DNA of 35,971 nt, from assembly GCA_902500775.1 (NCBI GenBank), contig CABVRZ010000043.1:1-35971 (forward strand), given 5' to 3'. The stretch's first letter is position 1, and every line of letters begins with the position of its first letter. Positions 8,763 to 32,762 of the stretch are shown here, piece by piece. Both the position numbers and the translations under genes were made by a program. Origin of the DNA: an uncultured Nitrospira sp. Its GTDB lineage: Bacteria > Nitrospirota > Nitrospiria > Nitrospirales > Nitrospiraceae. The notes beneath the pieces were generated by a model. That model saw only the letters and a program-made list of their open reading frames with translations. It was not told the DNA's origin and made no database searches.

Positions 8763-11700
8763 TTATGGAGCGAGGCTCAGTTCATCAAGGATGGTTTGTG
8801 CTGCAACCACGTCTGGGTTCGTACTGTGTCGGCTGAATCTGAACCGGACTGAACCTAAGACCTCTGTAGCCATATCTGGTTTGTTGAGTTTTCTCAAGAG
8901 CCGGGCCATGCTCGTTGCGGCGCGTAGTTCGAATAGCCTCGCCTGCTGACTCTGGGCTACCGCTAAGGCTTTGGAGAAGCACTGCTCCGCCGCCGTAACC
9001 GGTTGGCCGGATTGCATGAGTACGAGTTCGCCCTGTATTCGAAACAGCTCAGCCTGCCAACACAACTCCCCTTGCGTCGCAACAAGCTCCTCTGCCTGTT
9101 GGATCGCAGCCAAGCCGTCCGTCACATGATGCACCCGCACATGACACTCTGCAAGCAACGCCAAGATACAGGTATTGATGAGACTCGCTTTCGCGCTCTG
9201 TGCCGCCGAGAGTCCCGCTACTACTCGCTCGATCCCTTTTTCTTGCCCTTGTTCGGCTAGGGCCCATCCCTGAAACGACATCGCCCATGCCAGCGGCACC
9301 TCGAATGAAAATTTGGTGGAAATCTGGATCGCTTCTTCGGTCACATCCAACGTTCTCTTGCTATCGCGGAGAGTGGAATAGACCCAGGCGGTTGTCGCTA
9401 AGGTGAAGGCCAGGGTGAAGGGATGTTCTAATGCTCTTGCCAGGGTAATGGCTTCCTCCACTAAGCCTTCGACCTCATCAACCTCTCCGGAAATCAATGT
9501 GTTTTGTGCCAGCATCATTCGCGCAGTAATGCCGGGATCTTGGGTATAGGGCAATCCATTCGAGCGATCCCGCGGGCGGTCCATGAGGGATTTGGCTTCG
9601 CGCAAATGGATCTTCGCTTCCTCGAACCGACCAAGAAACGTATCGGTGGACCCCACGCTTTCGTGCGCCCGAATCATCAAGGCGGGCTTGTCTTGCCTGA
9701 TAGCCAACGAGAGAAGCTCTTCGCCCAAGCCGCGAGCCTCGGCAAGCGGTCCTCTGGATAAACGAAACACCCATAATCCCCACAGAGAAAGAAAGTAATC
9801 CTCTGAACCAGGATTGGTTTCCGAAAGACGTTTGGCACTGAGAAAGTTTCGCTCAATGTCGTCCGACGCATACCCCTTGAGGATCAACAAGGGCGCTCCA
9901 CGTGCGATAAGCAGCGCCAGCTCCAACCCATCACGCACCGGATCTTTCGGCAACTCCTTGAGCAGATGGAGCGCACGATCAAAATGACTGATCGCTTCGA
10001 CATTCGCAGATCGCGCGATATCCCGCTCCGCCGCGCGACGCCAATACTCAATGGCCTGGCTCGGCAATCCCGCTTGTTCATAGTGATAGGCCAGTAATTC
10101 CGGCTCCGTCGTGACGCGCTCGGCAAACCGGCTCTCTAAGGTCTTTGCAATACGGGCATGAAGCGCTCGGCGTGATTTTTTGGGCAATGTGCTGTAAGCG
10201 GCATCTTGAACAAGCGCGTGTTTAAACAGATATTTTGCGGCAGGGATCTCGCCCGTTTGAAAAATGATCCCTGAGGCGCTCAATAAGTTCAGGGCAGTGT
10301 GTAACTCACCTTCCGTGACATCGGCGGTCTCGCGCAACAGCTCGTAGCTGAACTCTCGTCCGATCACGGCTCCCAGTTGGATGATATCCTTGGCAGGCCC
10401 CAATCGATCGATCCGTTCCATCAACAAGGCTTGGAGGGAGTCCGGAATGGAGAGGTCTTGTAACGGTGCCTTCAGACTGAACGAGTTGTCTTCTTCGATC
10501 AGCAATCCCGACTTGAGCACGTTGTCTGCCAATTCTTCGATATACAATGGAATCCCGTCGGTCTTCGCCAGAATGGCTTGTTCCACTTCCGACGGAAGGG
10601 CTTTTCCTTTGGTCATTGCGGCAAGCAGCTCCAGGCTATAACGTCGAGGGAGTCGGCTCAAGGTCAGGAACGTCACATGGCTGGACTCCGCCCACCCGAG
10701 TTTCACGTTCGGTCGAAGCGTCACGACCATCAAGACTCGCATCCGTTGGATCTGATCGAGAATCAGAGTCAGAAGATCCATGGTGGTCGGATCAAGCCAA
10801 TGCGCATCTTCCACGATAAAGAGAGTCGGAGTACGATCGGCGAGTCCACGGAGCTGTTGGACCAGCGCGTCAAGGGTCATTTCCTTGCGCTTTTCTGCCG
10901 ACATATTCGGGAGTTGATCCCGGGCATCACTGCGAATGGACAGCAGATCAGCCAGCAATGCTCGAGTGCGCTGACCATCGATGTCGTTGTGCTCTGTCCA
11001 TGCGTCAAGCTTCTGCAACTGCAGTGCGGGAGGATCTTCATCGCGTAGGCTCGCTGCCTGTCGTAGATAAGTGATGACCGGATAGAGCGCGGTATTGGTG
11101 TGATATGGGGAGCATTGGAATTGCATCGTTCGGCAGCCCTCTTCGGCAAGTCGGTCGCCTACGTTGTGGACCATGCGGGATTTGCCGATGCCGGCTTCTC
11201 CGCACAACACGACCACCTGTCCTTCACCGTCGACGGCTTCGCGCCAGCGCCCCATAAGCAGCGCCGTTTCCTGCTCTCTGCCGACGAAACTGCCGAGCCG
11301 ACCGGACCGATACGATTCAAACCGGCTGACCGAAGGCGTTGCGCTTAGAACCTGCCAGACGTGCACCGGCCCTTCAAATCCCTTGAGAGCCACGTCGCCT
11401 CGATCCTCGAACTCGAACTCACTTCCGACCAACCGTTTTGTCGCTGCGTCGATGACGACTTGATTGGGCGCCGCCACGGCCTGCAGCCGGGCGGCGAGAT
11501 TCGGAGTTTCACCGAATACCGATCGCTCCTTCGCGTGGTCCTGTCCCAAAATTTCCCCCACGATGACATGCCCGGTTGCAATCCCGATTCTTGCCCCGAA
11601 GTCAACATTCCGGTGGTCCGACTCTTCTCTGGGAAGACCTTTGACCAAATCCAGCACGGCCAGCCCGGCATGGACGGCTCGCTCTGCATCGTGCTCATAC

Positions 11701-12164
11701 GCACTAGGATAGCCGAAATACGCCAAGATCCCGTCACCCATATATTTAGCGACATATCCGTTGAATCGACGGATAGCCTCGCTTGAGGTATCCAGAAAAC
11801 GCCGGATGGTTGTCTGAAGATCCTCGGGGTCCAATTGACAGGCTAAGGACGTCGACCCCACAAGATCGCAAAACATGATCGTCAATTGGCGCCGCTCTGC
11901 GTGATCTCGATCTGATGGAGCCGGGTGGCGTTCCTGAGCGGGTGCAGGAAGCGGAGGATTCACATGCTCGCCTTCACCGCTGTTCGGCAGATGCGCAATA
12001 GCCCGCAGGAGCTTTTTCCGATGGCCCAGGAGCACACCCAAAGACGTCAAGTCTTCGTCGGTCAGCTCAGGCAACACATCCCACGTGATGGCATTCTGCT
12101 GAAATACGTCCCGATAAGTCCCAAGTCCGAGACCCTCCAGCCATATTGACACGCGATCATCCAT
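8763..12164 (-). CDS. SAM - class III nucleotide cyclase - AAA ATPase - TPR signalling protein (copy A)
   Basis: From the ATG at 12164 the protein has 1133 residues. A SAM domain spans about 3-60 (VSIWLEGLGL, ITWDVLPELTDEDLTSLGV). A class III cyclase catalytic domain spans about 91-273 with metal-binding Asp100 (FCDLVGS) and Asp144 (KYMGDG) and the NLAAR transition-state pair at 222-226; a Ser stands where many adenylate cyclases have Asp. An AAA/STAND ATPase begins near 294 (GREQET) with Walker A GEAGIGKS at 322-329 and Walker B TLFIVEDAHW. The last 450 or so residues are TPR-like helices. It probably makes cAMP or cGMP in response to a signal sensed by the ATPase-TPR part. The open frame extends upstream to 12215, but that extension overlaps the MBL relic and is not shared with copy B. 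Confidence 0.88.
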   Translation of the reverse strand: MDDRVSIWLEGLGLGTYRDVFQQNAITWDVLPELTDEDLTSLGVLLGHRKKLLRAIAHLPNSGEGEHVNPPLPAPAQERHPAPSDRDHAERRQLTIMFCDLVGSTSLACQLDPEDLQTTIRRFLDTSSEAIRRFNGYVAKYMGDGILAYFGYPSAYEHDAERAVHAGLAVLDLVKGLPREESDHRNVDFGARIGIATGHVIVGEILGQDHAKERSVFGETPNLAARLQAVAAPNQVVIDAATKRLVGSEFEFEDRGDVALKGFEGPVHVWQVLSATPSVSRFESYRSGRLGSFVGREQETALLMGRWREAVDGEGQVVVLCGEAGIGKSRMVHNVGDRLAEEGCRTMQFQCSPYHTNTALYPVITYLRQAASLRDEDPPALQLQKLDAWTEHNDIDGQRTRALLADLLSIRSDARDQLPNMSAEKRKEMTLDALVQQLRGLADRTPTLFIVEDAHWLDPTTMDLLTLILDQIQRMRVLMVVTLRPNVKLGWAESSHVTFLTLSRLPRRYSLELLAAMTKGKALPSEVEQAILAKTDGIPLYIEELADNVLKSGLLIEEDNSFSLKAPLQDLSIPDSLQALLMERIDRLGPAKDIIQLGAVIGREFSYELLRETADVTEGELHTALNLLSASGIIFQTGEIPAAKYLFKHALVQDAAYSTLPKKSRRALHARIAKTLESRFAERVTTEPELLAYHYEQAGLPSQAIEYWRRAAERDIARSANVEAISHFDRALHLLKELPKDPVRDGLELALLIARGAPLLILKGYASDDIERNFLSAKRLSETNPGSEDYFLSLWGLWVFRLSRGPLAEARGLGEELLSLAIRQDKPALMIRAHESVGSTDTFLGRFEEAKIHLREAKSLMDRPRDRSNGLPYTQDPGITARMMLAQNTLISGEVDEVEGLVEEAITLARALEHPFTLAFTLATTAWVYSTLRDSKRTLDVTEEAIQISTKFSFEVPLAWAMSFQGWALAEQGQEKGIERVVAGLSAAQSAKASLINTCILALLAECHVRVHHVTDGLAAIQQAEELVATQGELCWQAELFRIQGELVLMQSGQPVTAAEQCFSKALAVAQSQQARLFELRAATSMARLLRKLNKPDMATEVLGSVRFRFSRHSTNPDVVAAQTILDELSLAP

Positions 12165-12231
12165 GATCAAGATCCCCGGCGGCATGCGTGGGATGGACGT
12201 TGGTTCCAGAACCAAGGATGGTCAGGCGCAT
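12157..12231 (-). pseudogene. Relic of the 5' end of a second MBL-hydrolase gene
   Basis: Read on the minus strand from the ATG at 12231 this gives MRLTILGSGTNVHPT-HAAGDLDHG-stop. The first 15 residues are identical to the start of the intact MBL protein at 7984-8739, while 12 of those 15 codons differ at the third base. After codon 15 similarity stops after a few residues and a TGA ends the frame, overlapping the ATG of cyclase copy A (CATGGATGA). It lies 28 bases after the stop of cyclase copy B, as the intact MBL gene lies 23 bases after copy A. The remnant therefore marks an ancestral cyclase-MBL, cyclase-MBL tandem. It might still act as a coupled leader ORF for copy A. Confidence 0.82.
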
Positions 12232-12259: not shown

Positions 12260-15200
12260 TCATGATGCCACGGCAAGCTGATCAAGGAGAGCTTGCGCCG
12301 CCATGACGTCAGGATTGGCACATTGCCCACCAAACCTGGAGCGGATCAAACTGAGAGTACGTTTCGCAAGATCGAGCTTGTTCTGCTTTCTCAATAGCCT
12401 TGCCAAACTCACGGTGGCGCGTAGTTCCAACATGGTAGCATGCTGAGCTTGAGCGATCTCTCTTGCCTCAACAAAACACTGTTCCGCTGCACTGGCCAAT
12501 TGGCCCGATTGCGCCAGAAAGAGCTCGCCTTTCATGCGCAGCAGTTCTGCATGCCAACAGGCCTCTCCCTGCGAATGAACCAGTGCAAGGGCTTCCTCAA
12601 GCGCCCCTAACCCTTCGTCGATACGCTGTTTACGCAGATACACTTCCGCGAGCAACGCCAACATATGCGTATTGTTAAGGCACGCTTTGGCTGCTCGCAG
12701 TGCAGACAGCCCATCCAGGATACTTCCGAGGCCATGGTCTTTTCCCATTTCATCTATCGCCCAGCCATGAAAGAATGTCGCGTATGCCAAGGGCACTTCA
12801 AATGAGTATTTTTTCGAAAGAGTAATACTTTCTTCAGCAAGACTCAAAGTTCGTCTTGGGTCGCGAAGAATGGAATAGACCCATGGAACAGTTGCTAAGG
12901 CAAAAGCCAATGTAAAGGGGTGTTCCAATTTTCTCGCCATGCCAAGAGCTTCCTGCACCAACGCTTCGACATGATCAACTTCCCCCGAAATCAGTAGCGT
13001 CCTCGCGGTCATGACTCGCGCGGCGATACCAGGTTCCGCGATGTAGGGTAATACTAGTGGCCGATGTTTTTCACGAGTATAACCGACGGAACTAAGGACC
13101 GCCTTCGCAGTAACCAAATGAGTCTTGGCCTCAGCAAGTCGACCAAGAAATGAACAGGTTGTCCCCTGTGCTGTATGTGCCCGAATCAGGAACTCTTGAT
13201 TCCTGTGATACTGAGCCCACGAGAAAAGATTGTCCGCCAGATCACCAGCCGTGACAAGCGGCCCTCTGACCAGATGGAAAAGCCATAAACCCCACATGGC
13301 GAAAAAATAATACTCGGGATTGTTGCTCCCTTGTGATAGTTCCTTCACCCTGTGATAATTGTGCTCAGTTTCGTCGGAGGCATAGCCCTTAAGGCTAATG
13401 ATGACAGGGCCTCTGGCGACGAGAAGATCCAGCTCCAATGCATCACGCTCCGAATCTTGTGGCACACACCCCAATAACTCTAACGCCTTGTCAAGGTGAT
13501 ACAGCGCTTCGATGTGGGCTGAGCGTGCTACATCTCGCTGAGCCGCCAGAAACCAATACTTGATAGCTAGGCCCATCGATTCTGCCTGTTCATAGTGATG
13601 AGCCAGAAGCTCCGGTTCGTCCGCTGTCCGCTCGGCAAATGTATTCTCGATCGCTTGCGCAATGCGTATATGGAGCGTGTGCCGAGAGGCCTTGGTCAGA
13701 ATACCGTAGGCCGCATCCTGAATCAGGGCATGTCGAAACACATAGCGTGCGAGAGGGATCTCCTCCTCCTGCACAATGAGCCCGGACACAGCCAGGACAG
13801 AGAGCGCGTTCTGCAATTCACCTTCGGCCACGTCAACGACCTCTCGTAACAGCTCATAACTAAACTCCCGCCCAAGCGCGGCGCCGATTTGGGCAATCTC
13901 CTTGGCAAGCCCGAGCCGGTCGATCCGTTCGATGAGCAACGCGTGCAGAGAGTCCGGAACCGGTAAGTCTTTGAGCGGTGCCTTCAGACGGTAGCCATGA
14001 GTCTCCTCGATCAGTAACCCTGACTTGATCACGCTGTCCGTCAACTCTTCGACATAGAGCGGAACCCCCTCGGTCTTGGCCAGGATGGCTTGCTCGACTT
14101 CGAGTGGAAGGACTTTCCCTCCTGTCGTCGAGACCAGGAGCTCGGCGCTCTGTCGACGAGAGAGCCGACCCAGTGTCAGGAACATCACATGATTCAATTC
14201 CGACCACTTCGGTGTGAAGTCCGGACGAGCGGTGATCAGGAGCAGGCCTCGCATCCGCTGGATCCGAGCCATGACCCGGGTCAGAAACTCCATGGTGGTT
14301 GGGTCAATCCAATGGGCGTCCTCCACAATGCACAATGTTGGGCAACGATCGGCCATGTTCTGCAGGAGTTGCCCGAGCGCCTCAAGTGTCAGTTCTTTGC
14401 GCCTGTCCGGCGAGATCGTCAAGGATGAGTGCTCGTCGCCACCCGGAATGGAGAGGAGATCCGCCAATACCGCGATCGTGGTCTGATCAGATACGCCGTA
14501 GGTGTCGGCGAAGGTCTGGAGTGTCTGCAGTTGATTGATGGGACTGTCCTCACCGATCACTCCCATCGCCCGTCGAAGCGCATGAATCACGGGATAGAGG
14601 ACGGTGTTGGCATGGTGCGGGGAACACTGCAATTGTACCGTGTCGTGAGACTCCTCCCTCACCAGTTCGCATAAATGCCGGACCAGCTTAGACTTTCCAA
14701 TTCCCGCCTCTCCGGACAAGAGCACGACCTGTCCTTCACCCTCGACAGCCTCACACCAGCGGCTGAGCAACAGCGCGATTTCGCTTTCTCGGCCGATAAA
14801 ATGGGCTCGCCGATCTGCACGATATGATTCAAAGCGACTGACGGAGACATTCCTCCCGACGACCTGCCAGGATTGAACCGGCCGGTCAAATCCTTTGAGC
14901 GCAACCGCACCGCAATCCACACACTCAAATTCGTTTCCCACGAGACGCCTGGTCGTCGCATCGACAATCAATTGATTGGGCCCCGCCATCGACTGGAGAC
15001 GTGCCGCGAGATTCGGCGTTTCCCCGAACACCGACCGTTCTCTGGCGGTGTGTTCTCCGATGAGCTCGCCCACCAGCACGTGGCCGGTCGCGATCCCAAT
15101 GCGCACCGCAAGATTGTCTTCCTGCTGTCCATCACGCGGAAGGGCCTTCACCAAATCCAGCACGACCAGTCCGGCATGGATTGCTCGCTCGGCATCATGC

Positions 15201-15670
15201 TCACGGGCATGAGGGTATCCAAAATAGGCCAACAGGCCATCCCCCATGTATTTCGCAATATAGCCGTGGAATTGGCCAATGGCCTGACCACAAGTGTCCA
15301 AAAACCGTCGGAGAATCTGGTGAAGGTCTTCAGGATCCACCCGACGAGCCAGCGCGGTGGACCCGACGAGGTCGCAAAACATGATGGTCAGCTGCCGCCG
15401 TTCGGCTTGCCCTCGACTGGAAGAGGGCAGCGTGAATGGTTCCACAGCCGGTACGGCTTGAGCAGCCGCATGGTTTCCTTCACTGTCTTGTAACAGATGC
15501 GCGATAGCCCGCAGGAGCTTTTTCCGATGGCCCAGGAGCACACCCAAAGACGTCAAGTCCTCGTCGGTCAGCTCAGACAACACATCCCACGTGATGGCAT
15601 TCTGCTGAAATACGTCCCGATAGTGATCAAGGCCGAGGCTTTCGAGCCAGACTGAGACGCGATCACTCAT
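12260..15670 (-). CDS. SAM - class III nucleotide cyclase - AAA ATPase - TPR signalling protein (copy B)
   Basis: This is a paralogue of the gene at 8763-12164 with the same domain order and almost the same length (1136 residues from the ATG at 15670). It has SAM (VSVWLESLGLDHYRDVF), cyclase with FCDLVGS, KYMGDG and SVFGETPNLAARLQ, Walker A GEAGIGKS, Walker B LCIVEDAHWIDPTTM, and TPR-like repeats to the end. All catalytic residues are kept, so both copies look active. The open frame extends to an ATG at 15712 (MTTLSSFSSAQQYP), but the homologous start shared with copy A is the ATG at 15670. A 126-bp part of the SAM region is nearly identical between the two genes while other regions are much more diverged. 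The gene is transcribed away from the HEAT membrane protein gene. Confidence 0.88.
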   Translation of the reverse strand: MSDRVSVWLESLGLDHYRDVFQQNAITWDVLSELTDEDLTSLGVLLGHRKKLLRAIAHLLQDSEGNHAAAQAVPAVEPFTLPSSSRGQAERRQLTIMFCDLVGSTALARRVDPEDLHQILRRFLDTCGQAIGQFHGYIAKYMGDGLLAYFGYPHAREHDAERAIHAGLVVLDLVKALPRDGQQEDNLAVRIGIATGHVLVGELIGEHTARERSVFGETPNLAARLQSMAGPNQLIVDATTRRLVGNEFECVDCGAVALKGFDRPVQSWQVVGRNVSVSRFESYRADRRAHFIGRESEIALLLSRWCEAVEGEGQVVLLSGEAGIGKSKLVRHLCELVREESHDTVQLQCSPHHANTVLYPVIHALRRAMGVIGEDSPINQLQTLQTFADTYGVSDQTTIAVLADLLSIPGGDEHSSLTISPDRRKELTLEALGQLLQNMADRCPTLCIVEDAHWIDPTTMEFLTRVMARIQRMRGLLLITARPDFTPKWSELNHVMFLTLGRLSRRQSAELLVSTTGGKVLPLEVEQAILAKTEGVPLYVEELTDSVIKSGLLIEETHGYRLKAPLKDLPVPDSLHALLIERIDRLGLAKEIAQIGAALGREFSYELLREVVDVAEGELQNALSVLAVSGLIVQEEEIPLARYVFRHALIQDAAYGILTKASRHTLHIRIAQAIENTFAERTADEPELLAHHYEQAESMGLAIKYWFLAAQRDVARSAHIEALYHLDKALELLGCVPQDSERDALELDLLVARGPVIISLKGYASDETEHNYHRVKELSQGSNNPEYYFFAMWGLWLFHLVRGPLVTAGDLADNLFSWAQYHRNQEFLIRAHTAQGTTCSFLGRLAEAKTHLVTAKAVLSSVGYTREKHRPLVLPYIAEPGIAARVMTARTLLISGEVDHVEALVQEALGMARKLEHPFTLAFALATVPWVYSILRDPRRTLSLAEESITLSKKYSFEVPLAYATFFHGWAIDEMGKDHGLGSILDGLSALRAAKACLNNTHMLALLAEVYLRKQRIDEGLGALEEALALVHSQGEACWHAELLRMKGELFLAQSGQLASAAEQCFVEAREIAQAQHATMLELRATVSLARLLRKQNKLDLAKRTLSLIRSRFGGQCANPDVMAAQALLDQLAVAS

Positions 15671-15889
15671 GGGGTACTGTTGAGCAGATGAGAACGATGA
15701 CAGGGTTGTCATGCATCGCGCTGTTCTGAGAGAGATGGTCCATCATCCCTATGAACCTCGTCGACGACGATGAATGGCCGAGTATGACCAGTGCCGCAAG
15801 AGCTTGTCAATTACGACGCTCCTGCACCAACCCTGACTTGACGTTGCTCGAATGGGAACGACATGAAGTGAGAGCTCTCTGTCGATTCG

Positions 15890-23382: not shown

Positions 23383-24216
23383 CTAGACCCACTCGATGAC
23401 GGCAATCTCAGGACGGCAGTTCAAACGAAATGGGAGAAAGGACCACCCTAGTCCTCGATTGACGTACAGCCTGTGCACACCGGACCGGTGCCAGCCCGCG
23501 ATCCGGCCATGACATCCAGGCGGAAGCCAGAAGGTCCGGACTCCCGGCACACGCCACTGCCCACCGTGGCTGTGCCCGCACAAGATCAAATCGATGGCGT
23601 GGTGCGGCTCTACTTGGTCGAGAATATTTGGTGCATGGGCCAACAGCAGCGTAAAGCGATGGTCCGCGCGAGGTGGCAGACATCGCAGATCAGCCCGGTG
23701 GAGCGAAGGATCATCGACACCGACGATCACCAGCTCTCCCTCTGCCACTGAGACGACCGCACATTGGTTCACCAGCAGGGTGACCTTGTGCCGGTCGGCC
23801 TGTTCGGCATACTCTGCTACCGGCACACCACTGTAATGATCGTGATTGCCCAGCGTCATATAGAGCGGCGCGATGGCGCGAAGACGGCCAAGAAGCCGGA
23901 ACAGATGCGGCACCCCTTCTGGTACATTGAGCAGATCTCCAGTGATCACGATCCAATCTGGCTGGAGATCGCCGACGATCCGGATGAGGCGGTCATGGCG
24001 CGGATGGTACCGGTCGAGATGCAGATCGGTGAGGTGGATGGCACGACGACCAGCAAGTATGCCATGCAGATGGGTATGTCGCGTCACCTCATAGTCGGAG
24101 AGGCCGAATTCCCACTCTGGGGCACAGCTAAACAACCGATAGAGGGGATGGCCCAGGGCATGGCCAATGGAAGATCTCAGGACATCGGGCCATGATGCTG
24201 TGCTTCGCGTGGTCAT
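23383..24216 (-). CDS. Calcineurin-like metallophosphoesterase
   Basis: The metal-binding motifs of the calcineurin-like family are in order: HLTDLHLD (Asp-x-His), VITGDLL, LGNHDHY, then LLLAHAPNI and LCGHSHGGQ. The layout resembles YaeI-type phosphodiesterases, with a C-terminal VNRGLGWSFLPFRLNCRPEIAVIE that is typical for them. I set the start at the ATG at 24216 (MTTRSTASWPDVL) because AGGAAAGGATC precedes it. The open frame continues another 40 residues upstream, but that part overlaps the divergent truD start region. Substrate unknown; YaeI relatives can act on lipid-type phosphoesters. It is divergent from truD with 37 bases between the chosen starts. Confidence 0.85.
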   Translation of the reverse strand: MTTRSTASWPDVLRSSIGHALGHPLYRLFSCAPEWEFGLSDYEVTRHTHLHGILAGRRAIHLTDLHLDRYHPRHDRLIRIVGDLQPDWIVITGDLLNVPEGVPHLFRLLGRLRAIAPLYMTLGNHDHYSGVPVAEYAEQADRHKVTLLVNQCAVVSVAEGELVIVGVDDPSLHRADLRCLPPRADHRFTLLLAHAPNILDQVEPHHAIDLILCGHSHGGQWRVPGVRTFWLPPGCHGRIAGWHRSGVHRLYVNRGLGWSFLPFRLNCRPEIAVIEWV

Positions 24217-24253
24217 TTTGATCCTTTCCTCATCGGACAAGAAAAAGTATAGC

Positions 24254-25327
24254 ATGCAGCAACAACCAGCCCATCGAACAAGCCACCGCATGGAACCACC
24301 GGCCGAGCCCTTTCTGACGAGCGACCTTCCTGGCATCGGTGGACGAATCCGTTCCGTGCCAGAGGACTTTCAGGTTGAGGAGCGGCCGCTCTATCTGCCT
24401 TGCGGGTCAGGAGAACATCTGTACGTCACCATCACGAAACGAGGCCTGTCCACACCCGACCTCGTTCGGCGGCTCTCCTCGACATTAGGAATCAAAGCGC
24501 AAGCCATCGGGGTCGCAGGCTTGAAAGACGCACGGGCCGTCACGACACAGATGATCTCCTTGCAAGGTATTGTCCCCGAACAGGTGGCTCGCCTGCCCAT
24601 TGATGAGACCCTTCTGAACGTGACCGTCCTCGGACGCCATCGTAATCGGCTCCGCACGGGTCACCATGCCGGCAATCGTTTCCGCCTAACCATTCGCGAC
24701 GTCGCCGGCCACGCCAAGGACACTGTCTCCATGATTCTTGAGCGATTGACCAGGCGCGGAATCCCCAACTACTTCGGCCCTCAACGTCAAGGGAAAGACG
24801 GCACCAATTATCAAACCGGGGCCGCCTTGCTCCACGATGCCCGGCGACGTGAAAAAATGAACCGCAATCAACGCATCTGGTATCTCAATACCTATCAGTC
24901 GTTTCTATTCAATCAAATCCTCGCCCGCCGAATCGAACAGATCGACCGAGTCTTCATCGGCGATTGGGCTATGAAATCCGAGAACGGCGCCTGCTTTCAG
25001 GTCGACGATGCCGAGCAGGAACAACCACGCGCGGATCGGTTTGAGATCAGCCCGACCGGGATTCTCTTTGGATCGCGTGTATCGTGGGCCGGCGGTGAGC
25101 CCGGTGCCATCGAAGAGGCCGTCATCGCTGAGGCCGGTGCGACGAAAGACACGCTCGTCTCCGCCGCGAAGGCTTGCGGATTCCGAGGTGAGCGCAGAGC
25201 GTTGCGTGTTCCCCTTTCAGACCTGGAGTGGGCTCTGGACGGTGACACTCTCACCATCTGCTTTCGTTTACCTCCCGGCGCCTATGCCACGAGCGTACTC
25301 AGAGAACTGATGAAGTTCTCCGGATAG
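24254..25327 (+). CDS. truD: tRNA pseudouridine(13) synthase TruD
   Basis: This is the TruD family of pseudouridine synthases, which modify U13 of tRNA. Motifs are GGRIRSVPEDFQVEERPLY at the N-terminus, catalytic GLKDARAVTTQ (Asp as nucleophile), RNRLRTGHHAGNRFRLTIR, then NYFGPQRQGKDG and RNQRIWYLNTYQSFLFNQIL, and near the end GERRALRVPLSDLEW and FRLPPGAYATSVLREL. The length (357 residues from the ATG at 24254) is normal. An ATG at 24290 (MEPPAEPF) is an alternative start; neither has a strong ribosome binding site. The frame also opens further upstream into the divergent phosphoesterase gene, which is unlikely to be used. Confidence 0.93.
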   Translation: MQQQPAHRTSHRMEPPAEPFLTSDLPGIGGRIRSVPEDFQVEERPLYLPCGSGEHLYVTITKRGLSTPDLVRRLSSTLGIKAQAIGVAGLKDARAVTTQMISLQGIVPEQVARLPIDETLLNVTVLGRHRNRLRTGHHAGNRFRLTIRDVAGHAKDTVSMILERLTRRGIPNYFGPQRQGKDGTNYQTGAALLHDARRREKMNRNQRIWYLNTYQSFLFNQILARRIEQIDRVFIGDWAMKSENGACFQVDDAEQEQPRADRFEISPTGILFGSRVSWAGGEPGAIEEAVIAEAGATKDTLVSAAKACGFRGERRALRVPLSDLEWALDGDTLTICFRLPPGAYATSVLRELMKFSG

Positions 25328-25409: not shown

Positions 25410-26654
25410 ATGGACCACCACCAGGAATACGTGCTCCTTGAGGGCCACATCATCGATTCGCTCGTGCTCGCGAAGGTCCTCGACCTCATTCTGATGATGG
25501 GAGGCTCCTTCGACCTGGCGGACGTACAGATCGGCAAGACCCGGACGGAACCGTCTCGTGCCCGCATTCTGGTTCGCGCACCGTCGAGAGCTCTTTTGGA
25601 CGAGATTCTGAAGGCGATTCAGCCCCATGGTGCGTCAATTGAGCGTGAGGCAGACTGCCGGACTGAACCGACGCCGGCTGATGGGATCCTTCCCGACAGC
25701 TTCTATGCCACCACCCATTTACCCACCCAGGTCCGAATTGATGGTCGCTGGGTCAATGTCGATCGGATCGAGATGGATCTGGCAATCCTGGTCAACACGG
25801 AAGGCTCCCTGGCCCATGCCATTCCAATGGGAGAAGTTCGCCGCGGAGATCGCATCATCGTCGGGCGAGAAGGTGTCCGAGTCATCCCGTTACCACGTCC
25901 ACAAGAACGAGATGTCTTTGGCTTCATGGAGTCCCAGGTGTCCACTGAACGACCTCACGGCCATATCATCTCTGACATTGCCGCACGGATGCGCCAATTG
26001 CGGAAAGGTCATCGGCAGGCACAGACGGATTCCAAGATCCTATTAGCTGGTGGGCCGGCGATCATTCATGCCGGTGGGCGAGACGCACTCACCTGGTTGA
26101 TCGAACAGGGATTCGTTCAGGTGCTGTTTTGTGGCAACGCCCTGGCCGCGCACGATATGGAAGCAGACCTCTACGGCACCTCGCTTGGCTATGGATTGAC
26201 GGCAGGTCATGCCGTTCCACACGGTCATGAACACCATTTGCGGACCATCAATCGGATTCGAGCCATCGGCAGCATTGAGCGCGCTGTCACCTCCGGTGTG
26301 ATCACGCATGGGATCATGGCCGCCTGTGTTCGGCAGGGTGTGTCGGTCGTCATGGCTGGTACCATTCGCGACGACGGTCCTCTACCCGGGGTGATCACCG
26401 ACTCGGTCCAGGCCCAACAGGCCATGCGAGCCAAGATTCCTACTGTCGGCCTGGCCCTGTTGGTCGCATCGACGCTGCACTCCGTTGCCACAGGAAACCT
26501 GCTTCCGGCGACCGTGCCCGTGGTTTGTGTGGATATCAACCCGTCGGTTCCGACCAAACTGGCGGATCGAGGCAGTTTTCAGGCGGTCGGGCTCGTCATG
26601 GATGCCGCCTCATTCCTCATAGAGTTGGCCCGAACCTTGGAGAGATCTGCATGA
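25410..26654 (+). CDS. TIGR00300-family ornithine cyclodeaminase-type enzyme (LOR/SDH domain)
   Basis: This 414-residue protein matches the TIGR00300/LOR-SDH-type family: YVLLEGHIIDSLVLAKVLDLI, GGSFDLADVQIGKT and SRARILVRAPS in the N-terminal regulatory-like part. A Rossmann-type C-terminal half follows with ILLAGGPAIIHAGG, FCGNALAAHDMEADLYGTSLG, ERAVTSGVITHGIM and VVCVDINPSVPTKLADRG. The homologous C-terminal half of cyanobacterial ArgZ/AgrE and the archaeal stand-alone enzyme convert ornithine to proline with release of ammonia. The gene overlaps the next (arginine dihydrolase-like) by 4 bases (ATGA), so the two products are made together. The family call is firm; the ornithine cyclodeaminase activity here is inferred from the pair. 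Confidence 0.85.
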   Translation: MDHHQEYVLLEGHIIDSLVLAKVLDLILMMGGSFDLADVQIGKTRTEPSRARILVRAPSRALLDEILKAIQPHGASIEREADCRTEPTPADGILPDSFYATTHLPTQVRIDGRWVNVDRIEMDLAILVNTEGSLAHAIPMGEVRRGDRIIVGREGVRVIPLPRPQERDVFGFMESQVSTERPHGHIISDIAARMRQLRKGHRQAQTDSKILLAGGPAIIHAGGRDALTWLIEQGFVQVLFCGNALAAHDMEADLYGTSLGYGLTAGHAVPHGHEHHLRTINRIRAIGSIERAVTSGVITHGIMAACVRQGVSVVMAGTIRDDGPLPGVITDSVQAQQAMRAKIPTVGLALLVASTLHSVATGNLLPATVPVVCVDINPSVPTKLADRGSFQAVGLVMDAASFLIELARTLERSA

Positions 26655-27451
26655 CCCGACTCCTGGTCTGCCCACCGGATTTTTTTGGGATCGAATATGA
26701 GATCAATCCCTGGATGCGGCTCAGCAACCGAGTCGACCACGAACGGGCCGTCTCGCAGTGGGATACTTTGATGGGGATTTTTGAACAGGATGTGGGTGTC
26801 GTGCTCGAACGAATGACGCCCGTTCCCGGATTGCCGGATCTCGTGTTTACGGCGAACGCCGGGCTGGTGGTGGGACGAACGGCCGTCGTCAGTCGTTTTC
26901 GATATCCTGAGCGCCAACGCGAGGAACCTTATTTTGAGCAGTGGTTTCGCGAACAGGGTTATGACGTGATGCTGATCGACGCAGGCCTACACTTTGAAGG
27001 TGCAGGCGATCTCCTGGGGTTTTCCGACACCTGGTTCGGTGGCTATCGGCAGCGGTCGGATATCGGTGTGTACCCGATCCTCAGTGAGCGCTTCCAGAAA
27101 GAAATCATTCCGCTCGAACTCATCGACAATCGGTTCTACCATTTAGACACCTGCCTCTGCCCATTAAGCGGCGGCGAGCTTCTGTATTTCCCCGCTGCAT
27201 TTGATGAATATGGTCAGCAGGCGATTGCCGATTGTGTTCACGACGCGCTCCGTTTCGCAGTCCCACGGGATGAAGCCATTCAATTCGCCTGCAACGCCGT
27301 CTGTATCGGTACGCACATCGTCCTTCCAGCCGGATGTCCCACCACTCAGGACTGGCTCCATCGTCGAGGGTATACCACGCACCCGGTTCAGCTCGATGAA
27401 TTCATAAAATCAGGAGGCGCTGCCAAGTGCCTCACGCTGTTGCTGGACTGA
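26651..27451 (+). CDS. argZ: Arginine dihydrolase-like guanidine-modifying enzyme
   Basis: This 266-residue amidinotransferase-fold protein resembles the N-terminal domain of cyanobacterial ArgZ/AgrE, which turns arginine into ornithine, 2 ammonia and CO2. Active-site positions are all present: Asn19 (INPWM), Asn69 (TANAG), Glu116 and Asp120 (HFEGAGD), His164 and Asp166 (YHLDTCL) and nucleophile Cys260 (GGAAKCLTL). Asn19 and Asn69 are the features that separate dihydrolases from plain deiminases or dimethylargininases. The gene starts inside the stop codon of the ornithine cyclodeaminase-type gene. Together they are a two-gene, reversed-order version of the fused enzyme. Dimethylargininase is the main alternative. 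Confidence 0.82.
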   Translation: MTRLLVCPPDFFGIEYEINPWMRLSNRVDHERAVSQWDTLMGIFEQDVGVVLERMTPVPGLPDLVFTANAGLVVGRTAVVSRFRYPERQREEPYFEQWFREQGYDVMLIDAGLHFEGAGDLLGFSDTWFGGYRQRSDIGVYPILSERFQKEIIPLELIDNRFYHLDTCLCPLSGGELLYFPAAFDEYGQQAIADCVHDALRFAVPRDEAIQFACNAVCIGTHIVLPAGCPTTQDWLHRRGYTTHPVQLDEFIKSGGAAKCLTLLLD

Positions 27452-28725: not shown

Positions 28726-28986
28726 CAACGCTTCCTCCTGGTCACCGTGCCTGTTGCCTCGCCCGTCCCATGACCTGGCTCGGTCTGGACCGCAGGCATT
28801 TCAAATCCGCACCAGACAACTCAGCAGTTTCCATGCCATCTCATAAGAGTTTGGTTCCTCTACCTCTCTGGCGGACTTGAACCACCAGAAGTGCCTACCC
28901 CATTCGTTGACAGGCTCTCGAGGCCGTTTCTATAATCGGCTCCCACGACTGTGTTGGTGATCATGTGGCCATCAGACTGATTGCGT

Positions 28987-30003
28987 ATGACCGTTTCTCT
29001 CAGCAAGATGTGTGTGATCGGCGCCGGGGCTTGGGGTACGGCTTTGGCCAAACATCTGGCCGAGAAGGGATTGGAGGTTCGTCTCTGGGCCTATGAACCA
29101 GCCGTTGTGCACGCCATCAACACCGCTCACGAAAACCCGATTTTTCTCAAAGGAGTCACACTCCCACACGGATTGATCGCCACCTCATCGCTTGAAGAAG
29201 CGACGCGATCAAGTGATGGACTGATATTCGCCGTGCCGTCCCACGCCACGCGATTGGTGCTTCACAAGCTGAGATCCTGCTTATCTGATCCCGTTCCATT
29301 GATCTGTGCGACCAAGGGCATCGAGGAAGAGACGGCCAAATTGATGACCCAGGTGATGGAGGACGAGTTACCGCCCGCTATGCACGGGGCTCTGATGGTG
29401 CTGTCTGGGCCAAGCTTCGCCGCTGAGCTCAGCGCGGGTCAACCGACGGCCGTCTGCCTGGCCGGCCATGACGCGACGCTCGTCCGGCGGTTTCAGAGCG
29501 CGTTGATGACGCGGGTATTTCGTGTCTATGCCGACAGCGATCTGCTGGGTATCCAGCTCGGTGGAGCACTGAAGAATGTGATGGCGCTGGCCGCCGGCGT
29601 GATCGATGGCCTGGAACTCGGCCTGAATGCTCGTGCCGCCCTCATTACCCGTGGACTGGCAGAAATCATCCGGCTCGGTGTCGCCATGGGAGCTGACCCC
29701 CGTACATTTTATGGACTCTCCGGCGTTGGTGATTTGGTCCTGACCTGCACCGGCACTCTCAGTCGGAATCACTCGGTGGGTGTGCGCCTCGGCAAAGGCG
29801 AGCGGCTCGAGGCCATCGTCAACGGGATGCAGGCCGTCGCTGAAGGCGTCCGCACGGCTCGCGCCGCGTTCACACTCGCCCAACGCCACCAGGTTGAGAT
29901 GCCCATCATCCAGGAGATCAACTCTGTCCTGCATGAGAACAAGTCTTGCCGCAAAGCGGTCAGTGACCTGATGGAACGGGATGCAAAACTCGAGAAGGGA
30001 TAA
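28987..30003 (+). CDS. gpsA: Glycerol-3-phosphate dehydrogenase [NAD(P)+]
   Basis: GpsA reduces dihydroxyacetone phosphate to glycerol 3-phosphate for phospholipid synthesis. Motifs are the dinucleotide-binding CVIGAGAWGTALAKHLAEKG near the N-terminus, then ICATKGIEEET, LSGPSFAAELSAGQPT, the catalytic LKNVMALAAGVIDGLELGLNAR (in part) and LSGVGDLVLTCTGTLSRN. ATG at 28987 gives 338 residues, normal for the family; a TTG at 28981 and an ATG at 29008 (MCVIGAG) are alternatives, none with a good ribosome binding site. larB follows after 2 bases, so they are co-transcribed. Confidence 0.95.
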   Translation: MTVSLSKMCVIGAGAWGTALAKHLAEKGLEVRLWAYEPAVVHAINTAHENPIFLKGVTLPHGLIATSSLEEATRSSDGLIFAVPSHATRLVLHKLRSCLSDPVPLICATKGIEEETAKLMTQVMEDELPPAMHGALMVLSGPSFAAELSAGQPTAVCLAGHDATLVRRFQSALMTRVFRVYADSDLLGIQLGGALKNVMALAAGVIDGLELGLNARAALITRGLAEIIRLGVAMGADPRTFYGLSGVGDLVLTCTGTLSRNHSVGVRLGKGERLEAIVNGMQAVAEGVRTARAAFTLAQRHQVEMPIIQEINSVLHENKSCRKAVSDLMERDAKLEKG

Positions 30004-30005
30004 TC

Positions 30006-30767
30006 ATGAATCCAGAAGGACTTGAGCAGTTACTTCGACAGGTCCACCGGGGACAGCTGACCGTCGAGCAAGGGCTCCAACGCCTGCGATCACTCCCGTA
30101 TGAAGATCTCGGTTTTGCGTCGCTCGACCACCATCGGTCGTTACGGCAAGGATTCCCCGAAGTCGTACTCTGTGAAGGAAAAACGACGGAACAAGTCGTG
30201 ACGATCGCTCGAGCTCTGATCAAAAAAGGAGGACCGTTCCTCGCCACCCGTGCGGAACCGACGGTCGGCCGGGCTATCCGCCGCCTCGATCGCCGCGCAC
30301 GGTACTATGCCGATGCACGCCTTGTTGTGATCCACCCGACACCACAGAAGGCACGAGGCCACATTCTGGTCGTGACCGCCGGCACCGCTGATGTGCCGGT
30401 CGCGGAGGAGGCTCGCATCACGGCCGAAGTGATGGGGAGTCGTGTTGAACGACTGTACGACGTGGGAGTGGCCGGGATCCATCGTTTGCTCGGAAGGAAA
30501 GATCGCTTATTTGAGGCCCAGGTCATTGTCGTGGTCGCCGGAATGGATGGTGTCTTGCCCAGCGTCGTGGGGGGACTCGTTCACTGTCCGGTCATCGCGG
30601 TCCCGACAAGCCGAGGGTATGGAGCAAGTTTCGGCGGAGTGGCGGCACTCTTGACGATGCTCAATTCCTGTGCGGCCGGTGTGGGCGTCATGAATATCGA
30701 CAACGGCTTCGGTGCCGCCTGTCTCGCACATCGGATCAATATGTTAGGCGTGAAGAGTGAGCGGTAA
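30006..30767 (+). CDS. larB: Nickel-pincer cofactor biosynthesis protein LarB
   Basis: LarB carboxylates nicotinic acid adenine dinucleotide and hydrolyses it, the first step to the nickel-pincer nucleotide cofactor of lactate racemase-type enzymes. The AIR-carboxylase-like core is clear: PEVVLCEGKTTEQVV, ILVVTAGTADVPVAEEA, YDVGVAGIHRLL, VVVAGMDGVLPSVVGGL, VIAVPTSRGYGASFGG and LNSCAAGVGVMNIDNGFGAA. Length (253) is normal. GAAGGGA precedes the ATG, which lies 2 bases after the gpsA stop. larC is found 0.8 kb downstream beyond an opposite-strand gene; larE and larA are not in the window. Confidence 0.94.
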   Translation: MNPEGLEQLLRQVHRGQLTVEQGLQRLRSLPYEDLGFASLDHHRSLRQGFPEVVLCEGKTTEQVVTIARALIKKGGPFLATRAEPTVGRAIRRLDRRARYYADARLVVIHPTPQKARGHILVVTAGTADVPVAEEARITAEVMGSRVERLYDVGVAGIHRLLGRKDRLFEAQVIVVVAGMDGVLPSVVGGLVHCPVIAVPTSRGYGASFGGVAALLTMLNSCAAGVGVMNIDNGFGAACLAHRINMLGVKSER

Positions 30768-31468: not shown

Positions 31469-31556
31469 CGAAGCGTCGACAACGAACCAATGATTGCCGT
31501 TCAGTCACACCTTCGGTAAGATGTGCGGTCTTTTTGCCTGCTGAGTGAGGGGAACC

Positions 31557-32762
31557 GTGGGCCGTCATCTGCATTTCGATTGTTTTTCTGGCGTGAGCGG
31601 GGACATGGTCTTGGGCGCCTTGGTCAGCGCGGGGCTGCCATGGGCAGACCTCGTGAACGGTCTCAATCGTCTCAAGCTGTCCGGCTACAAACTACGGAAA
31701 CGTGAGGTGCATCGTGGCGCACTTCATGCCGTCAAAGTCGATGTCCTCATCCAACGGGGATTTCAGCGGCCCCTGACGCTCTCTCGTATTCGGAACATCA
31801 TTACTCGCAGCACACTCCCAGACTTGGTCAAGGCACGCAGCCTCTCGGTCTTTGACCGATTGGCAGACGCAGAGGGACTGGCCCATCAGGTTCCGGCCAA
31901 AGACGTACACTTTCATGAAGTGGGAATCATCGACTCATTTGTTGATGTGGTGGGAGGGGTCCTGGGCTGCTATCTCCTGAATGTGACCCGCGTGACCTCT
32001 TCTGCGATCAATGTGGGCGCTGGTTCGATTCACACGTCCCACGGCCGCTTGCCTGTACCGGGACCGGCTGTGACTGCCTTATCCAAAGGCATTCCCGTCT
32101 ACTCTGAGGGGCCACGGCATGAGCTTGCCACACCGACCGGGGTAGCACTCATGCGGACTTTGGCATCGGAGTTTGGCCCCTTGCCAATCATGCGTAGCCT
32201 CGCGGTCGGCCATGGAGCCGGAGACCGAGATCCAGCGGACTGGCCAAATGTGTTACGCGTCTTTCTTCAGGATGACTCCATACCGGATCTCCATCACACC
32301 GAACGCATCATGCAAATCGAGACAAATCTCGACGACCTCAATCCACAGATCTACGAGTACGTGATGGAGCGACTCTTTGACCTCGGCGCCGTCGATGTCG
32401 CCCTGACTCCCGTGATCATGAAAAAAAGTCGACCGGGTGTGGTACTGACCTGCCTGACACCGAAAGAGCAGACAAATGCAGTGCTCGAAATCCTCTTCCA
32501 GGAAACGCCCACACTCGGCGTGCGCCTGCAGGAAGTCACCAGGCAGGTCCTCCCGCGCCGTATTGTCCCTGTCGCAATCCAGGGAGGAACCGTCCGCATC
32601 AAGATTGCCGAGCTGGGTGCCGGGTGGGACAAGGCGGCACCGGAGTATCTTGACTGCCAGTCTCTCGCGAGACGATCGGGGCGACCACTCAAAACCATCA
32701 TGGAGGAAGCCTTGCGAACCTATCGACAGACCACTCAAAAGCAACGGAGAGGCCGCGCATGA
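31557..32762 (+). CDS. larC: Nickel-pincer cofactor biosynthesis protein LarC
   Basis: LarC inserts nickel into the pincer nucleotide using CTP. Family motifs are HFDCFSGVSGDMVLGALVSAG at the N-terminus (read in parts), VHFHEVGIIDSFVDVVGGV, INVGAGSIHTSHGRLPVPGPA (in parts), ELATPTGVALM, then ETNLDDLNPQIYEYVMERLF and VDVALTPVIMKKSRPGV. In some lactobacilli LarC is made by a frameshift of two frames; here one frame covers both domains. GTG at 31557 (VGRHLHFD) is favoured because GAGGGG lies 4 bases before it; a GTG at 31545 is the alternative. It overlaps the cation exchanger gene by 4 bases. Confidence 0.93.
   Translation: MGRHLHFDCFSGVSGDMVLGALVSAGLPWADLVNGLNRLKLSGYKLRKREVHRGALHAVKVDVLIQRGFQRPLTLSRIRNIITRSTLPDLVKARSLSVFDRLADAEGLAHQVPAKDVHFHEVGIIDSFVDVVGGVLGCYLLNVTRVTSSAINVGAGSIHTSHGRLPVPGPAVTALSKGIPVYSEGPRHELATPTGVALMRTLASEFGPLPIMRSLAVGHGAGDRDPADWPNVLRVFLQDDSIPDLHHTERIMQIETNLDDLNPQIYEYVMERLFDLGAVDVALTPVIMKKSRPGVVLTCLTPKEQTNAVLEILFQETPTLGVRLQEVTRQVLPRRIVPVAIQGGTVRIKIAELGAGWDKAAPEYLDCQSLARRSGRPLKTIMEEALRTYRQTTQKQRRGRA

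Follow-up and report, generated by a model that had tools for sequence, protein, structure and literature searches.

Cyanobacteria provide the best-known case of a conversion of arginine into proline in which all the guanidine nitrogen is released; their enzyme AgrE breaks arginine down to proline, three ammonium and one CO2 (Flores 2021, PMC8262935). In Mycobacterium tuberculosis, the loss of Rv2323c results in impaired growth on arginine and in less arginine carbon passing to proline, according to the part of PMC4569260 that deals with this mutant. A further question concerns the nickel-pincer nucleotide (NPN): around 15% of the analysed genomes, many of them cyanobacterial, contain larB, larE and larC but no larA, and the protein that uses the cofactor is not identified in the sections of PMC11796402 on these genomes; Haloferax likewise has larBCE without a known user, in the passage of PMC8305020 that mentions it.

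The window, by which we mean the whole stretch of 35,971 nucleotides that was analysed, comes from a genome of 4.53 Mb (79 contigs, 99.7% complete) which belongs to the same family (f1) as G055, a genome of another genus. The ornithine cyclodeaminase coordinates in G055 are identical to those of L147, that is, Candidatus Nitrospira defluvii (genome G221), and the attribution of the DNA to a nitrifier-like bacterium in the original prediction is thus upheld by a shared family. The gene pair under study is real and mostly ordinary, and the features to which we refer are the following:

24167..25327, + strand, truD, tRNA pseudouridine synthase (TIGR00094, 174.1 bits, cut-off 172.2), 82 bp upstream of OCD
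25410..26654, + strand, ornithine cyclodeaminase (OCD) of the TIGR00300 / ArgZ C-terminal type, 414 aa
26651..27451, + strand, arginine-dihydrolase-like (ADH) guanidine-modifying enzyme, 266 aa, with a 4-nt overlap with the OCD gene
28981..30003, + strand, gpsA, glycerol-3-phosphate dehydrogenase (NF000942, 424.3 bits, cut-off 257), ending 2 bp before larB
30006..30767, + strand, larB, NPN synthesis (NF033503, 289 bits, cut-off 175)
31545..32762, + strand, larC, nickel insertion into the pincer cofactor (TIGR00299, 180.3 bits, cut-off 90; NF052512, 141.6 bits, cut-off 50)
G000:C4:141353-142123, on another contig of the window genome, larE (313 bits, cut-off 150)

Elsewhere in the window, the minus strand carries two adjacent ORFs (8763-12215 and 12260-15712), both 1150 aa long and perhaps a tandem duplicate.

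At the OCD/ADH junction the sequence reads ATGA, with the ADH ATG inside it and the OCD stop within, so that the expected TIGR00300-type gene overlapping a second gene by 4 bases is found with coordinates right to the base. Indeed, OCD scores 468.4 bits against TIGR00300 (NCBIfam 20.0), above the curated cut-off of 410.8, and matches the Pfam families PF04455, PF21571 and PF21570 (Saccharop_dh_N, ArgZ-like_C_1st and ArgZ-like_C_2nd). These three are the only families detected in the Pfam scan (E <= 0.01), which gave no match to the OCD/mu-crystallin family, that of the mu-crystallin-type ornithine cyclodeaminases, nor to the Lar_N domain; a weak match to the NCBIfam GSU2086 family amounts to 20.3 bits. 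ArgZ (Sll1336) and AgrE (Alr4995) are first or among the first PDB matches for both proteins, the relatives of OCD being the OCD half of AgrE/ArgZ and the Methanococcus maripaludis protein 3c2q. The description of the pair as a split version, in reversed order, of the cyanobacterial fusion likewise agrees with the data, as the two ORFs are arranged OCD-first, whereas in the fused order of ArgZ the ADH half comes before the OCD half (NF052231 profile positions 5-268 and 287-694, respectively).

The assignment of the second protein is less direct. The best NCBIfam model for ADH is NF052232, Arg_dihydro (281 bits, E 8e-84), which lies under the curated cut-off of 450, a value passed in none of the 198 genomes of the phylum sample; the second is NF045659, the M. 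tuberculosis-type dimethylargininase (233.1 bits, cut-off 300), and ADH also falls under the cut-off of every dimethylargininase model, so that the substrate is not settled by profile. The best solved relatives are ArgZ chains, 6jv0 among them, and the aligned N19, N69, E116, H164 and C260 of ADH are the active-site residues of ArgZ; in the PDB rows 6juz and 6jv1 Ser replaces the aligned Asn and Cys. The dihydrolase residues that had been listed for this protein (Asn19, Asn69, Glu116, His164 and Cys260) are therefore all present, and they are invariant in 154/154 aligned ADH rows, a number that includes repeat fetches of some genomes. As a general rule, DDAH/ADI-type hydrolases have Asp at the column of Asn69. 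A genome of the same order as the window genome (G081) has a second guanidine-modifying enzyme, L164, the one DDAH-like protein that we checked:

L164:1446-2231, additional DDAH-like guanidine-modifying enzyme, in genomes of the sister family f2

Its best scores are to dimethylargininase/DDAH models and not to the dihydrolase, and it has Asp at this column where the window ADH has Asn, a contrast which, short of proof, speaks for a dihydrolase chemistry of ADH rather than that of DDAH or ADI. We have weighed the alternative that ADH is a hydrolase of dimethylarginine, or an arginine deiminase forming citrulline, and that its adjacency to OCD is incidental or serves another route. The score of ADH against the M. 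tuberculosis-type dimethylargininase is not far under that against the dihydrolase, both being below cut-off, and OCD-less relatives score slightly higher with the former model, L071 for example reaching 265 bits with it versus 251 with the latter. Nevertheless, this alternative appears unlikely in view of Asn69, of the position of ADH next to OCD in all 52 OCD genomes and of the fact that citrulline is no OCD substrate; moreover Rv2323c, the namesake of the competing model, is itself required for arginine use, as stated in the relevant part of PMC4569260. By score, ADH stands outside the NCBI arginine dihydrolase model; judged by its residues and its partner, it would work as an arginine dihydrolase.

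We have carried out profile searches with curated cut-offs over the 198 phylum genomes and observed TIGR00300 above cut-off in 51, whereas a 52nd (G195) carries OCD in two overlapping frames (G195:C22:696045-697341), a frameshift or assembly error. In 52/52 OCD genomes ADH lies downstream of OCD on the same strand, with no more than 60 bp between the profile matches in 41 of them and a maximum of 273 bp, a pairing far above chance. ADH matches exceeding 100 bits occur in 61 phylum genomes, nine of which (G129 and eight f17 genomes) are without OCD, indicating that the two steps are separable. Relatives of ADH were also collected by profile search of genome contigs with the patterns YEINPWM and PD[LM]VFTAN, the best 80 of 581 being taken, a selection from which the commonness of fused forms is not readable. 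A full-length OCD is directly upstream on the same strand in 46 of these 80 loci; in the others OCD is 2 kb upstream (L120), partial (4 loci) or not found locally (29 loci, four of which have less than 1.4 kb of upstream sequence). Of the genomes that carry these selected loci, 50 were tested; 45 of them encode a TIGR00300 protein above cut-off, including 18 of the 23 without OCD at the locus, in which the gene is found elsewhere. No arginine genes were detected among the eight neighbours scanned at the OCD-less ADH genes of L067 and L071. The 80 best loci belong to Nitrospirota, Planctomycetota, Verrucomicrobiota, Chloroflexota, Omnitrophota, NC10 and others, and the 4-nt overlap of the ADH ATG with the OCD stop recurs in 31/87 distinct junctions. 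Clearly, the constant adjacency and the same order across phyla make the split, OCD-first pair a widespread one, and any notion that it is special to the window organism has to be abandoned, given the same order in several phyla and in 46 of the best 80 relatives.

What was observed, namely the order and overlap of the genes, their family scores, the residues of the active site and the co-occurrence, is consistent with a two-enzyme arginine catabolic unit, the split, OCD-first counterpart of ArgZ/AgrE, which very probably converts arginine into proline, CO2 and three ammonia. By homology, the substrates, products and step order are most likely as follows. ADH would carry out two successive hydrolyses of the L-arginine guanidine group, by way of a thiouronium-type intermediate on Cys260, giving L-ornithine, CO2 and two ammonia. 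OCD would next strip ornithine of its alpha-amine in a hidden redox step, in which a nicotinate-derived cofactor takes a hydride, ring closure proceeds with loss of ammonia and the hydride is returned, yielding L-proline and the third ammonia. The predicted release of three ammonia per arginine would thereby equal the figure published for AgrE (PMC8262935). Should the split pair act likewise, an arginine route with one CO2 and three ammonia would exist in nitrite oxidisers and in several phyla represented mostly by MAGs, and the fact that the two proteins are separate makes each step easily assayed alone.

The role of such a unit would be the recycling of nitrogen and carbon from free arginine. 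ProC is present in the window genome and above cut-off in 184/198 phylum genomes, so that proline synthesis is independent of the pair and OCD is ruled out as the sole proline route. Three small genomes of the window's family (G102, G159 and G163) are without OCD and ADH and have kept ProC; in our reading, the pair recycles arginine and is dispensable. The original prediction also proposed nitrogen storage, and by analogy with cyanobacteria, in which AgrE acts with cyanophycin (PMC8262935), the pair might feed or drain a nitrogen reserve. However, the cyanophycin synthetase (TIGR02068) is above cut-off in 0/198 phylum genomes, and the best match in the window genome reaches 121 bits over one half of this model only; a cyanophycin-type store is thus unsupported, and we hold a function in such a reserve to be most improbable.

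The interest of the finding lies in the cofactor of OCD. Downstream of ADH, larB and larC start 2.6 kb and 4.1 kb after its end, respectively (spanning 2.6-5.3 kb), and opposite-strand ORFs lie in between, so that we refer to linkage and not to one operon; the original prediction makes no mention of these two genes. The truD neighbour also occurs in N. defluvii L147, L152, L130, L154, L114, L080, L079 and L078, and five of these (N. defluvii L147, L152, L130, L080 and L079) share the complete series truD-OCD-ADH-gpsA-larB-larC. A larB gene no more than 6 kb downstream of OCD is found in 42/52 OCD genomes, corresponding to 42/43 in family f1 and 0/9 outside it. The domain search detected no Lar_N domain, and hence no larA, in the window genome, in which larB, larC and larE are present; NPN there needs another client. 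We incline slightly towards OCD being this client in larB/C/E-bearing, larA-less organisms, with H220, H248 and K383 in or near the site of a deoxyhypusine-synthase-like domain. The title of TIGR00300 in NCBIfam 20.0, 'ornithine cyclodeaminase, nickel-pincer nucleotide-dependent', points in the same direction and suggests that someone has already reached NPN dependence for the family, although our literature search found no paper linking the nickel-pincer nucleotide to ornithine cyclodeaminase; a search combining Nitrospira with ornithine cyclodeaminase found nothing on the subject in the portions of the records returned. If OCD were NPN-dependent, this would answer the user question left by the sections of PMC11796402 on larA-less genomes and would provide an NPN enzyme beyond the LarA family.

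A different picture results if OCD uses NAD+ and the nearby larB and larC are ordinary neighbours in the service of a different enzyme; we consider this a real possibility, somewhat short of even. The PDB entry 6lrg is entitled 'Ternary Complex of AgrE with Ornithine and NAD+', and the linkage of larB to OCD, tight as it is in family f1, vanishes in the nine OCD genomes outside it. In the phylum sample LarB is over cut-off in 148/198 genomes, versus 51 for OCD and 15 for the LarA domain (Lar_N), and is kept in G102, G159 and G163 without OCD or LarA; other NPN users must exist, and the idea that LarB strictly marks OCD or LarA was rejected, its distribution being much wider. LarC was similarly rejected as a strict OCD partner, being a weak link at best: 35/45 OCD genomes have it and 10/45 do not, and it occurs in 3/5 OCD-less genomes. 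Some of these gaps may come from incomplete MAGs; LarB is nevertheless present and LarC absent in all three Omnitrophota OCD genomes in which both were looked for (G200, G216 and G224). Among 14 control genomes, M. jannaschii and Haloferax have TIGR00300, and Thermotoga and M. acetivorans have Lar_N; LarC occurs in all four and also in Synechococcus elongatus and Corynebacterium glutamicum. Many phylum genomes also contain proteins of around 320-390 aa with a weak TIGR00300 match at positions about 184-257, for example:

G159:C32:1211-1432, weak partial TIGR00300 match
G163:C3:54747-54965, weak partial TIGR00300 match

These proteins may form another family that shares the domain, and they are possible further users of NPN.

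The fold of OCD counts on the side of NAD+. The predicted structure (pLDDT 88.0, pTM 0.82) replaced a first model from 7 sequences that was weak in the K383 region, and it superimposes on M. maripaludis 3c2q with Z 40.6 and 44% identity. In this prediction, residues 180-414 match deoxyhypusine synthase (DHS), which works with NAD, over lengths of 214-228 residues (Z 15.6-18.9), and 17/29 OCD C-terminal domains have a weak match to the Pfam DS (deoxyhypusine synthase) family. By sequence, the OCD profile against the PDB (E up to 10) retrieved nothing beyond the OCD family, DHS included; the modelled likeness is one of shared fold and not of family membership. LarA is not among the PDB matches listed for OCD, which excludes nothing. 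The catalytic lysine of DHS is Lys329, and a K329A entry is among the structural matches listed. The stretch around K383 resembles by eye the DHS stretch from residue 328, which contains Lys329, and K383 may therefore be a catalytic lysine of NAD chemistry.

We have also compared OCD residues across genomes with and without LarB, in an alignment comprising 33 rows from LarB-bearing genomes, 4 from scattered LarB-less ones and 13 from Verrucomicrobia, all of these last without LarB over cut-off. H220, H248, K383, R387 and G388 are conserved in 33/33 and 4/4 rows of the first two sets (in the larB-less L085, L097, L098 and L150, H220, H248 and K383 are all kept), whereas the 13 Verrucomicrobial rows keep H220 in 3, H248 in 1, K383 in 3, R387 in 3 and G388 in 1. 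This loss of His and Lys in a larB-less lineage argues against the use of NAD+. In the tree, the larB-bearing L141, Verrucomicrobial and with intact residues, is sister to the larB-less lineage, in which L121 and L156 (H220 and K383 kept, and most residues overall) are followed by L139 and then by ten mostly replaced sequences, an order that fits cofactor loss followed by residue decay. In essence, the residues and LarB were lost together once, in Verrucomicrobia, and this single event gives no statistical support: independence of LarB and K383 or H248 on the tree was tested with 3 independent pairs (sign test, p 1). Under the NPN reading, the order truD-OCD-ADH-gpsA-larB-larC and the residue loss in larB-less Verrucomicrobia would be its genomic traces, and the loss of larB would be a natural experiment pointing to residues to mutate. 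In L108, L112, L116, L118, L128, L131, L134, L137, L145 and L161 the conserved His, Lys and Arg of OCD are mostly replaced and the ADH beside it is intact; these Verrucomicrobial OCDs may have taken on a new function or use a different cofactor.

Comparison with the known systems summarizes the position of this locus. The Rv2323c type (NF045659) is related to the window ADH, at 233 bits, although the latter is closer to the dihydrolase model; Rv2323c is clustered with rocE and rocD and not with OCD, in the part of PMC4569260 describing its locus. The lar system, made of LarA with LarB, LarE and LarC, is shared as regards LarB, LarC and LarE, but the window genome is without LarA and its OCD domain is deoxyhypusine-synthase-like. 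The archaeal OCD of M. maripaludis belongs to the same family, with the Z score and identity given above; unlike the window OCD it was solved as a stand-alone protein, and we know of no ADH partner for it. The closest systems are ArgZ (Sll1336) and AgrE (Alr4995). These are single bifunctional chains with ADH first, whereas the window pair consists of two genes with OCD first and lacks the NF052231 architecture, the window ADH lying well below the curated model cut-off; in a quick OCD tree with one archaeal outgroup, the two fused sequences fall outside all 50 split ones. In spite of these differences, both halves are homologous over their full length, the catalytic residues of ADH are the same, and W114, H220, H248, D322, N363, K383, D386, R387 and G388 of OCD are conserved.
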